Shown here one piece after another: positions 24,887 to 30,600 of a DNA stretch of 55,883 bases. Under the pieces are notes generated by a model that saw only the letters and a list, made by a program, of their open reading frames with translations, had not been told where the DNA came from and did no database searches. The DNA is from Opitutus sp. GAS368. Its GTDB lineage: Bacteria > Verrucomicrobiota > Verrucomicrobiia > Opitutales > UBA953. Location of the stretch: the NCBI GenBank assembly GCA_945882655.1, contig CAMCWL010000002.1, positions 1-55,883 of the forward strand, read 5' to 3'. The number at the start of each line of letters is the position of its first letter. The first letter of the stretch is position 1. Both the position numbers and the translations under genes were made by a program.

Positions 24887-25007
24887 GGGAGTGTCTCGGG
24901 CGGACTGTGTCAGGCCCGCCCTTCCCTTCCAGCCTTTTTGCGAATGTATGACACCGCTTGCCTCCCCTCCCCTCGCCCCTTGGGATGACCTGAGCTCACG
25001 CTATCCT

Positions 25008-26366
25008 ATGTCCGCCTCCGAGACCATCGTCGCCGCCGCGACACCCGCCGGCCGCTCGGCCTTGGCGATTGTGCGCGTGGACGGGCCGCTGGCTTCGGCC
25101 ATCGCGACCGCCGCCCTCGCCCGCAAGACCCCGCTCACCGAGAAGACTTCGACGCTCGGCATCTGGCGTAATCAGGACGGCGAGCCCATCGACCAGGTCG
25201 TCGCCGTGCTCTGGCATGCCGGCCGCTCCTTCACGGGCAACGACTCGCTCGAAATCACGTGCCACGGTAATCCCCTGATTGTGCGTCGCCTCACCGAGGA
25301 TTGCCTCGCGCGCGGTGGACGTATCGCCGAACCCGGCGAGTTCACACGCCGCTCCTACCTCGCGGGCCGCATCGACCTCACCCAAGCCGAGGCCGTCGCG
25401 GATCTGATCCACGCCAGCTCGGAGCGCGCGCTCGCCTCTGCCCGGCGTATGCTCGCCGGCGAACTCGGCCGGCACGTCGCCCGCTGGACTGACCGCACGT
25501 TGCAAATCCTCGCTGAACTCGAGGCGCATATCGATTTCCCGGAGGAAGACCTGCCGCCGGAAGACCCGCTCGGCCCTGCGGCCCGCTTGATTGAAATTGC
25601 GTCAGAACTTTCTGGATACGCTCGCACGGCGAAGCATGACGGCGCCCTGCGCGCCGGTCTGCGCGTCGCCGTCGTCGGGGCGCCCAACGCCGGGAAGTCG
25701 AGCCTACTCAACGCGCTCGCCGGCGCCGACCGCGCGATCGTGAGCCCCGAAGCCGGCACGACACGTGACTACCTCGAGGCGCCGGTCGCCGGCTTGCCGC
25801 TCGCCGTGACCGCGATCGACACCGCCGGATTACGCGACGGTGGTTCGACGCTCGAGAATCTCGGCATGGCGCGCTCACTCGAACAGGCACGCGGCGCGCA
25901 TCTCCTTCTTCTGGTCGTCGATGCTTCGGCGGAGCCCCCTGCCCTGCCGGCGGATCTCGTCGCGCTGCTCGACCCTGCGCGCACGCTCATTGTCGCCAAC
26001 AAGTCGGACCTACCCGCACATCGTGCACAGCAGGATTTCCTGCCACAGATCGCGAAGCTTTCCGCCTGCCTCTTAGATGGGCGCGACGCCGAAGCGCTCC
26101 GCGCCAAGCTCGGGGAGTTCCTCATCGCTAAGGAAATCGCCCCGGGGGCCGAAGACCTCGTGGTCAGCGTCCGCCATGCCGAGGCCCTGGCCCGGGCGGC
26201 GACCGCCCTTTCCGAAGCCGCCGGCCACCTCAAAGCCCCCATCCAGACCGAGCTCGCGGCCGCCCAAGGCCGGGTTGCACTGGACGCTCTGGGGGAAATC
26301 GTCGGTCGCATCGATAATGAGCGTATGCTGGACAAGCTCTTCGCTTCCTTCTGCATAGGTAAGTGA
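25008..26366 (+). CDS. mnmE: tRNA modification GTPase MnmE
   Basis: [52 protein letters not shown]-terminal FASFCIGK. Confidence 0.96.
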
Positions 26367-26389: not shown

Positions 26390-28270
26390 ATGCGACCTCA
26401 CAAACAAATCCGCCTCGGGCCTGATCGCCCCTATGACGTCATCGTCTGCGGGGCCGGCCATGCCGGCGTGGAAGCCGCCCTGGCCGCCGCACGCATGGGC
26501 GTGGATGTCCTGCTCCTGACAGGGAACGTGGACACCATCGCCCAGATGAGCTGCAACCCCGCCATCGGGGGCCAGGCCAAGGGCCATATCGTCCGAGAGA
26601 TCGACGCCCTGGGGGGCGAGATGGGCCTGACCGCCGACGTGACCGGCATCCAGTTCCGCCTCCTCAACTCCTCCAAGGGCCCAGCCGTCCAGGCCCCCCG
26701 CGCCCAGTGTGATAAGAAGGCCTACCAGTTCCGCATGAAGCACCTCTGCGAGCTGCAGGACGGCCTCACCATCTTCCAGGCCCAGGTGACCGGACTCATC
26801 TTTAAGAATGGGGCCGTGGTCGGGGTACAGACTAACCTCGACCTAGAGTTCCACGGTAAAACCGTGGTTGTCACCACCGGCACTTTCTTACGCGGCCTGA
26901 TGCACATCGGGGCGAATAAAACCGAGGGCGGACGCCTAGGTGATTTTAGTGCTAAGTCATTGTCAGCCAGTTTCTTAGAGGCTGGAATTGAGCTCCAAAG
27001 ACTCAAGACCGGCACCCCGCCGCGCATCCTGGGACGGTCCATCGATTTCAGCAAATGTGAGGAGCAGCCGGGCGATGCCTCCCCCACCCTTTTTGCCTTC
27101 CACGACACCCGCCAGCAGACCGATTTGTTCCACGTGGAACAAGCCGGCGAACGCCTCCCAGGATGGACCCCTGGCAGCGAGCAGGTCTCCTGTTGGATGA
27201 CCGAGGCGACCTGCGCCACCGGCAAGATCGTCCAAGAGAACCTCCACCTCTCTCCCCTCTTTGGCGGCGAGATTACCGGGGTCGGCCCGCGCTACTGCCC
27301 GTCCATCGAGGACAAGTTCGTCAAGTTCTCGGATAAGGACACCCACAAGCTCTACCTCGAGCCCGAAGGCCGCAATACCGACGAATGGTATATCAACGGA
27401 CTTTCGACCTCCCTGCCCTTTGCCGTCCAGCTGCAGATGCTGGCTTCAATCCCCGGACTAGAGAAAGCCGTCATGCTCCGGCCGGCCTATGCCGTGGAAT
27501 ACGATTTCTCGCCCCCTACCCAGCTCTACCCCACCTTAGAGTCCAAAAAGGTCGAGGCCTTGTTCTTTGCCGGCCAGATCAATGGAACCTCTGGATATGA
27601 AGAAGCCGCCGCCCAGGGCCTGGTCGCCGGGGTCAATGCCGCCTGTAAGGTCAAGGGTCAGACTCCCATGGTCATTGGCCGCGACGAAGCCTATATCGGC
27701 GTCCTCATCGATGATTTGGTGACTAAAGGCACCCAGGAGCCTTACCGGATGTTTACCAGCCGAGCTGAATTCCGCCTTTTATTCAACCACGGCAGCGCCG
27801 AACTCCGACTTAAGGACAAAATCGCCGAGTTCGACCTAGTCCCTCCGGATCGCTTAGCCCGAATCCAGGTCAAGGCCGATAAGGTCACGCATTGGATCGA
27901 ATACCTGGAAAGGTTGGCCATCCCGGGCGGGATTGCTGGCGACGTCATCCGCCGTAACTGGGAGTCGACCCCCAAGGATTTGCCCCCGACATTCCTGGCC
28001 GAAGCCCCTGAAGTTCAGGCTGAAGTCATGTACCGGGTTAAATACCGGGGCTATTTGGAGCGCGAAACGCGCAACGCCCGTAAGCTGCACGATCTAGACT
28101 CCTTTAAGGTGCCTGAAGGCTTTGATTTCTTAAAAGCCTACGGCTTGCGCATCGAAGCCCGCCAGAAACTCCAAGCCATTCAGCCCAAGACTCTGGGACA
28201 GGCCGGCCGAATCAGCGGGGTCAATCCAGCGGATATCTCTCTGCTAATGGTTCTTTTCCGGGCCAAGTAG
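26390..28270 (+). CDS. mnmG: tRNA uridine-5-carboxymethylaminomethyl enzyme MnmG
   Basis: [79 protein letters not shown] 26390 preceded by AGGGAG; upstream GTG 26363 also possible. Confidence 0.96.
27126..27141. promoter_or_regulatory. parS: parS-like centromere site within mnmG
   Basis: TGTTCCACGTGGAACA, perfect 16-bp palindrome (18 bp with flanking T/A). Matches the ParB parS core. Confidence 0.85.
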
Positions 28271-28298: not shown

Positions 28299-28314
28299 TG
28301 TTCCACGTGGAACA
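28299..28314. promoter_or_regulatory. parS: Second parS-like site, downstream of mnmG
   Basis: TGTTCCACGTGGAACA, identical 16/16 to the mnmG site, in the mnmG-phoB intergenic region. Confidence 0.88.
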
Positions 28315-28484
28315 CGTCCATTGTAAAGATTGCAGCCGCGCGGAGTGACAATCGTGTTTCTTAAATACATAAACAGTTTATGGACAGTGGCTTATGATAT
28401 AAAATAGCGTCGTAACACATCCGCCATGATTGTCACCTAACTCTGGCGCTTCTTTTAATGGGGCCTTTAAGTAGTCGTGCACCC

Positions 28485-29180
28485 ATGGACGCCGAACACC
28501 TCAAGCGCATCCTGATCGTCGACGATGAGTCCGACGTGACGGAACTATTGGACTACAAGTTCAAGCAAGCCGGCTATGCCATCCGCACGCTCAACGACCC
28601 ACTGCGCGCCATCGGCCTCGCTCGCGACTTCCGCCCGGATCTGATCATCCTCGACGTCATGATGCCCGAGCTCACGGGTGTTCAGCTGCTCCGCATGGTC
28701 CGCGCCGACGCACTCCTCCAGGATACGCCCGTCATCTTCCTCACCGCCAAGGGTGAAACAATCGACAAAGTGAAGGGCCTCGAATCGGGCGCCGACGATT
28801 ACGTGACGAAGCCTTTTGATACACGGGAACTGATGCTGCGTGCTCAGGCACTGTTGCGCCGCGCAAAGTCGGCCGCCGCCAAGCCTTCGACCCGCCTCGC
28901 CGCTGGTGCACTGATGCTTGATATTGAACGTCACGAAGTGACCGCCTCCGGCAAGATTGTCGAACTGACCGCCACCGAATTCAAGCTGCTCCGACTGCTC
29001 CTCGAGCGGAAGGGCAGGGTACAGTCGCGCGAAGAACTCCTCGCCGACGTCTGGAACTATTCGCCCGACCTCGAGACCCGCACGGTCGACACCCACGTTC
29101 GCCGCCTGCGCGAGAAGCTCGGCCCGTCCGGCGACATAATCGATACGGTGCGCGGCGTCGGTTACCGCGTAAACGGCTGA
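28485..29180 (+). CDS. phoB: OmpR/PhoB-family response regulator
   Basis: ILIVDDESDVTELLDYKF, LIILDVMMPELTG, VIFLTAKGE, DDYVTKPFD; winged-helix TVDTHVRRLREKLG...VRGVGYRV. Confidence 0.93.
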   Translation: MDAEHLKRILIVDDESDVTELLDYKFKQAGYAIRTLNDPLRAIGLARDFRPDLIILDVMMPELTGVQLLRMVRADALLQDTPVIFLTAKGETIDKVKGLESGADDYVTKPFDTRELMLRAQALLRRAKSAAAKPSTRLAAGALMLDIERHEVTASGKIVELTATEFKLLRLLLERKGRVQSREELLADVWNYSPDLETRTVDTHVRRLREKLGPSGDIIDTVRGVGYRVNG

Positions 29181-29229: not shown

Positions 29230-30471
29230 ATGTCCTGGCTTCCCTGGTTGCTCCTGCTCGCGCTCGTCGTCGCTGCCGTCTGGTACTTCGCCGAGATTGC
29301 CGGCCATGTGCGTTGGGCCCGCCGCGCGCTGCTCGCCGATGGCGGCGCACCGCGTCCGCAAGGCTGGCTGGTCCGCAAGCTGCGCTTAGAAGAACTCTTC
29401 GTCGCCATCGAACGCCGGGCCGCCAATGAAGGCGAGATCCGTGCTGCGGCGGCCCGGCGCATCGAAGCGCTCCTGGCGCCGCTCACCGACGCCGTGCTCG
29501 TCGTCGACGCCCAAGATCGGCTCCGCCTCGCCAACCCAGCGGCCGCCGCATTATTCAACCTCTCCGAAAAAGATACGGGAGGCTCAATTGTACCGCTCGT
29601 CCGGAGCGCGGACTTCATCGAACTCGTCCGCCGCGTCCGCGCCGAAGGCGACGCCCGCTCCACGATTCTCCTGAACCGTGCGCCACTCTCCGATGTCTGG
29701 ATCCAAGCCGCCGGTGCGCGGACAGATCCAGAAGCGTTCGATGACGGCGCCGCCATCTTCGTCTTGGCAGATGTGACGGCGCTGAAACGCCTCCAGGCCA
29801 TGGAGCGCGACTTCGTCACGAACGTCTCCCATGACCTGCGTACCCCGGTGACAATCCTCCGCGGCTACGCCGAGACCTTGGCTGAAGACCAGGCGACGAT
29901 GTCGCCCGAAGATCGCGCCCGTTTCACGCAGAAGATTGTGAGCTCCATCGGCCGTCTGCAGGGACTCGTCGAAGGACTACTCGCCCTCGCCAGCCTGGAA
30001 TCCTCCCAGGATGTCCGTCGCGAGCCGGGGGCGCTCCATGTCGCGGCCCGTGAGGTCGCGGTGGAATTCGCCGCCCGCTGTAAGGCCGCCGGGGTGAAGT
30101 TGGAATTGAAGTTGGAAGCCGCCGGTGGTGGCGCTGCCGATCCAGTCCAAGCCCGCCGACTGGTCCAGAACCTCATTGATAACGCCTTGGCCCACGCCGC
30201 CGGCATGAGCCGCCTCATCGTATCGACCCGCGATACCCCGAGCGGCGTTGAGCTGACCGTGGAAGATGACGGGGCCGGAGTCACCCCTGCAGACCTCCCG
30301 AGACTCTTCGATCGGTTTTACCGGACCGACAAATCCCGCCGGGCAGGGGGTAGCGGTCTAGGACTCAGTATCGTCCGCCAAGTCGCCGAACTCCATGGGG
30401 GGTCGGCCTCGGTGGAGCCTGCCCAGCCAAAGGGCCTACGGATCACGGTAACCCTGCCGGCCGCGGCCTAG
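29230..30471 (+). CDS. phoR: PhoR-type sensor histidine kinase
   Basis: N-terminal TM, PAS-like domain, FVTNVSHDLRTPVTILRGYAETL H-box, NLIDNALAHA, GSGLGLSIVRQVAELHGG. Confidence 0.92.
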   Translation: MSWLPWLLLLALVVAAVWYFAEIAGHVRWARRALLADGGAPRPQGWLVRKLRLEELFVAIERRAANEGEIRAAAARRIEALLAPLTDAVLVVDAQDRLRLANPAAAALFNLSEKDTGGSIVPLVRSADFIELVRRVRAEGDARSTILLNRAPLSDVWIQAAGARTDPEAFDDGAAIFVLADVTALKRLQAMERDFVTNVSHDLRTPVTILRGYAETLAEDQATMSPEDRARFTQKIVSSIGRLQGLVEGLLALASLESSQDVRREPGALHVAAREVAVEFAARCKAAGVKLELKLEAAGGGAADPVQARRLVQNLIDNALAHAAGMSRLIVSTRDTPSGVELTVEDDGAGVTPADLPRLFDRFYRTDKSRRAGGSGLGLSIVRQVAELHGGSASVEPAQPKGLRITVTLPAAA

Positions 30472-30525: not shown

Positions 30526-30600
30526 TGGAGCGCGCGACTGGACTTGAACCAGCAACAGCCACCTTGGCAAGGTGGTACTCTACCATTGAGCTACGCGCGC
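30526..30600 (-). tRNA. tRNA-Gly (anticodon GCC), CCA encoded
   Basis: Minus strand: GCGCGCGTAGCTCAATGGTAGAGTACCACCTTGCCAAGGTGGCTGTTGCTGGTTCAAGTCCAGTCGCGCGCTCCA; cloverleaf with GTTCAAGTC T-arm and GCC anticodon. Confidence 0.96.

Follow-up and report, generated by a model that had tools for sequence, protein, structure and literature searches.

A putative chromosomal parS site in a flexible loop of mnmG across most of the Verrucomicrobiota

Why would the gene for a tRNA-modification enzyme carry, in frame, a perfect palindrome of the kind that serves as a bacterial centromere? The question arises from a 55,883-nt stretch of DNA from Opitutus sp. GAS368 (Verrucomicrobiota; contig CAMCWL010000002.1, assembly GCA_945882655.1), referred to here as the window, in which a first interpretation made from the letters alone (the sequence-only reading) had pointed to such a palindrome within mnmG, read in the gene's frame as LFHVEQ, and had guessed that it sits in a loop insertion that exists to host a centromere site. 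A sequence scan bore out the 16-bp palindrome, its position and its frame. As judged from sequence comparison, the palindrome is very probably a chromosomal parS site, present in frame in mnmG and again just after the gene, and the flexible loop of MnmG that contains it would be kept largely for its parS DNA. The wider proposal is that across most ParB-bearing Verrucomicrobiota mnmG is an ancestral centromere gene, and that an essentially disordered loop was enlarged and kept because its DNA is parS; this we consider probable, with distinctly less assurance.

At up to three mismatches, the window contains three matches to the parS word, as compared with 0.25 expected from shuffles, and two of them are perfect (sites 1 and 2, Table 1). 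Site 2, a perfect intergenic copy, had gone unmentioned in the sequence-only reading. A genome-wide scan for further matches, which that reading had suggested, returned only these same two sites at up to two mismatches in the whole 1.84-Mb metagenome-assembled genome (MAG; 86% complete, 181 contigs), so that the 16-bp parS consensus is matched by two perfect copies, both at mnmG. The copies are few and clustered, lying 1.17 kb apart, and their proximity to the origin is read from four complete relatives, described below. Within the taxonomic family, 71 of 79 genomes carry sites at no more than one mismatch, usually exactly two, and the site-bearing FHVE loop is nearly universal in the Opitutales, the order in which this genome groups with UBA953-like MAGs. 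Eight complete genomes from the order and class, 2.2–6 Mb in size and including G096, G166 and G177, have one chromosomal site at up to one mismatch, in each case within mnmG. The idea of a centromere loop had to be corrected in scope: the arrangement is not confined to this genome but extends over most of the phylum, and the intergenic second site belongs to it as well.

Table 1. Positions in the window of mnmG, its loop, the two predicted parS sites and neighbouring genes.
Feature	Coordinates	Strand	Basis or description
mnmG (gidA), tRNA uridine-5-carboxymethylaminomethyl(34) synthesis enzyme, host gene	26390..28270	+	NCBIfam TIGR00136, 735 bits, cut-off 525
MnmG loop, 30 residues, hosts site 1	27101..27190	+	between conserved Phe-x-Phe and conserved Cys (27191-27193)
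parS site 1 (predicted), TGTTCCACGTGGAACA	27126..27141	.	within mnmG, codes LFHVEQ; kept across relatives
parS site 2 (predicted), same 16 bp as site 1	28299..28314	.	intergenic, 28 bp past mnmG stop
mnmE, upstream neighbour of mnmG	24891..26366	+	NCBIfam TIGR00450, 294 bits
PhoB-like response regulator, lying after site 2	28458..29180	+	best match TIGR02154, under its cut-off
PhoR-like histidine kinase	29230..30471	+	best match TIGR02966, under its cut-off

The protein that contains site 1 matches MnmG over its full length, above the curated cut-off, and the conserved Cys that follows the loop, which we take to be C245 of E. coli MnmG, is retained in 84 of 84 sequences. By alignment, the stretch from the Phe-x-Phe motif to this Cys counts 30 residues in the window protein, as compared with 18 in Aquifex and 12 in both E. 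coli and Chlorobium, the MnmG proteins from outside the phylum being those with solved structures only. The earlier estimate of 15–20 extra residues is thus right relative to E. coli, with 18 extra. In an AlphaFold2 model the loop is coil between two strands, and residues 248–254, which overlap the parS codons 246–251, have a predicted local distance difference test score below 50. Such a low-confidence coil would also be expected if the MnmG loop were ancestrally variable and merely tolerated a real parS, having been neither enlarged nor kept for it, and the loop does remain long in lineages that lost the site. We consider this explanation unlikely, though worth keeping in view: loops with a site measure 27–62 residues, some of them holding two parS modules, whereas those in lineages that show no trace of one measure 15–20. 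Two copies occur in the loop in 21 of 81 rows of the MnmG tree, commonly 27–54 bp apart. As a separate observation, three genomes from deep families (f34, f15 and f31) have 3–5 perfect parS matches within ~140–800 bp, which possibly represent arrays between genes or MnmG loops of unusual length.

On the MnmG tree the no-trace lineages stand together as a group apart, whereas the remaining losses fall within branches that otherwise bear the site. Two Akkermansia-like lineages (L190 and L194) have a decayed loop site, FRMEQ or FRMKQ with 6–7 mismatches, and a perfect site that reads FHVEH at mnmG codon 522, while their relative L192 has degenerate copies at both places. In genome G018 (L048), it is mnmE (minus strand, 1401–2807) that carries FHVEQ, twice, at residues 202 and 432 of the listed open reading frame, each encoded by a one-mismatch parS. 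The mnmG gene of another genome, G010, keeps a 30-residue loop but reads FDAGL there (5 mismatches); its sites lie ~148 kb off on the same contig, the first adjoining a PhoR-like kinase gene similar to the one in the window. Two 0.9-Mb single-contig genomes (G114 and G135) have no DnaA or ParB match at E ≤ 0.001 and no parS, and in G135, which lacks ParB, the loop site is at 6 mismatches.

The loop sequence could in principle be conserved for its peptide, with FHVE(Q/H) acting as a functional MnmG motif, for example in contact with MnmE or tRNA, and the palindrome arising as a by-product. Such a motif would fit the uniform reading frame of the sites, which is the same in 80 of the 83 with no more than one mismatch, and the position of the loop next to the conserved Cys. 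The codons, however, are frozen far beyond what codon usage explains. Among 80 non-redundant MnmG sequences, 79 of 88 FHVE motifs are encoded exactly by TTC-CAC-GTG-GAA, where 3.3 would be expected from each gene's own codon usage. In this same set the residue before FHVE varies (mostly M, L or V) while its codon mostly ends in TG, and the residue after it varies (mostly Q or H) while its codon mostly begins with CA. Across 43 sequences of the genus, only 6 of the 273 invariant residues other than Met and Trp within the first 380 positions are always written with the same codon, and the F, H and E of the site account for half of them. The DNA is also kept in the other two frames in three deep lineages, in which a second site reads as VPRGT (L203 and L211) or as CSTWN (L217). 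In addition, the site has moved to the C-terminal part of mnmG and to mnmE in the cases described above, and the motif is missing from those MnmG proteins that were read in lineages lacking canonical ParB. Finally, site 2 is conserved equally: in 44 genomes (the window and its relatives) it forms a 16-bp island of conservation (0.89–1.00 per column) in otherwise variable intergenic DNA, 5–32 bp past the stop codon. Because the codons are frozen, the flanking codons biased, the other frames used and the intergenic copy conserved, selection on the peptide offers no explanation, and we give a peptide motif very little credence. The alignments indicate that conservation is at the level of DNA and that FHVE is merely the reading of putative parS DNA in one frame. 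Together with the length of the loop, which tracks the site, the frozen synonymous codons, the use of all three frames and the moves within mnmG and into mnmE support the guess that the loop is there in order to hold a centromere.

If the palindrome is parS, it should be accompanied by ParB, and in the family a ParB above the curated cut-off is found in 65 of 79 genomes, including a close relative (G029); one canonical ParB per genome is typical in relatives. Among 195 genomes of the phylum, 104 have both ParB and a perfect parS, 67 have neither, 21 have ParB only and three have parS only (one of these being this MAG), such that 24 of the 195 are discordant. Several of the 21 ParB-only genomes have loop sites with one or two mismatches. 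The type of ParB was also considered, as the NCBIfam Noc model outscores parB_part for a ParB of the genus, yet stays under the Noc cut-off. Residues 173, 179, 184 and 201 of the helix-turn-helix (HTH) region of ParB/Noc proteins distinguish the parS type from the Noc type (PMC7383237), and all 34 such regions read from relatives have R173 and G201 and no Lys at 179 or 184. As these specificity residues decide the matter, we assign this ParB to the parS type and reject a Noc identity; its best matches among solved structures are chromosomal ParB/Spo0J proteins.

The location of the sites points in the same direction. In four complete genomes (G166, G177, G102 and G096), GC skew, sampled in 20-kb stretches, switches from negative to positive at the interval that holds or adjoins mnmG, and the zoomed skew minimum lies 57 kb from mnmG in G166 and 85 kb from it in G177. 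In all four, dnaA is far from the GC-skew origin, and in G166 and G096 it lies ~45% of the chromosome away from mnmG. CACGTG cores serve other regulators too, and the palindrome might therefore be an operator for some such DNA-binding protein, but this is very improbable given that a genome holds one or two copies, close to the GC-skew origin, that the word agrees exactly with the 16-bp parS type already known, that it co-occurs strongly with canonical ParB and that this ParB has the specificity residues of the parS type.

Several observations weigh against the view that mnmG is a centromere gene whose loop is kept for its parS DNA. The search of this 86%-complete assembly found no ParB; the sequence-only reading had itself held that a genome without a ParB homolog would refute it, and formally this is the state of the MAG, although its incompleteness and the 65 of 79 family genomes that do have ParB stand on the other side. 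The association of ParB with parS is partly due to one deep phylogenetic split, and its Fisher p-value therefore overstates independence. One genome, G202, combines a good ParB with an mnmG loop in which no site can be recognised. Six lineages (L125, L160, L184, L190, L191 and L194) lost the site and yet keep loops of 29–32 residues; the loop might serve the protein in some way, or it might just be slow to decay. In the 55-kb window alone, GC skew has no clear switch.

If the loop is indeed kept for its parS DNA, then ParB, encoded elsewhere on the chromosome, would load at the mnmG site and at the downstream copy and spread from both, building a partition complex on the origin region, which ParA and SMC would then segregate; the loop itself would have no other role. 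We infer these steps, beyond the presence of the sites, from the known ParABS pathway. The system resembles chromosomal ParABS with its 16-bp parS (TGTTNCACGTGAAACA type) in the class of palindrome, in its few, origin-proximal copies and in the canonical ParB of relatives, which has the GERR motif as well as parS-type HTH residues. It differs in the place of its main site, within the part of mnmG that encodes an enlarged loop of the enzyme, and in that parB is not beside the site in complete relatives; nor, in the ones examined for it, does dnaA lie at the origin.

A parS within a coding sequence is in itself already known. In the accessible part of a study of Pseudomonas aeruginosa (PMC4368675), nine of ten parS sites are predicted within coding sequences and one origin-proximal site is enough for segregation, and thus one or two sites could make up a full centromere here too. 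A position within coding sequence is shared with the present locus, whereas the P. aeruginosa sites are spread along the chromosome, and that part of the study describes neither a dedicated insertion nor a switch of frame, nor a host gene common to a phylum. Likewise, what is accessible on Thermus thermophilus places a single chromosomal parS in gidB, next to parA (PMC4409726), and on Mycobacterium places one copy inside parA (PMC2346475); these sites are also intragenic, and in Thermus single, but the host genes are gidB and parA rather than mnmG, and a loop insertion is not described in those portions. In the open-access literature on parS with mnmG, gidA, Verrucomicrobia or Opitutus the arrangement is not described, and we found no open-access report of a phylum-wide parS host gene, of an enlarged loop, or of parS in all three frames of one loop. 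An enzyme loop that carries a centromere across a phylum therefore appears to be new.

If true, this would mean that a segment of a protein is there to serve a piece of DNA, and it would be a clear case in which the conservation of a protein insertion is explained by selection on DNA, with consequences for how motifs such as FHVEQ are read in annotations and structures. It would also provide a likely parS locus for a phylum of which few members have been studied, and in the genomes checked this locus is a better marker of the replication origin than dnaA is. Centromeres with one site could be tested cleanly here. One may also ask what the spread of ParB over mnmG would do to expression of the tRNA-modification enzyme.

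The remaining genes of the neighbourhood are listed in Table 1. Since the family match of mnmE starts only at residue 43, its true start is probably near 25017. The gene for the PhoR-like kinase adjoins a tRNA-Gly (GCC) gene on the minus strand (30526–30600); no other tRNA gene was found in the window.
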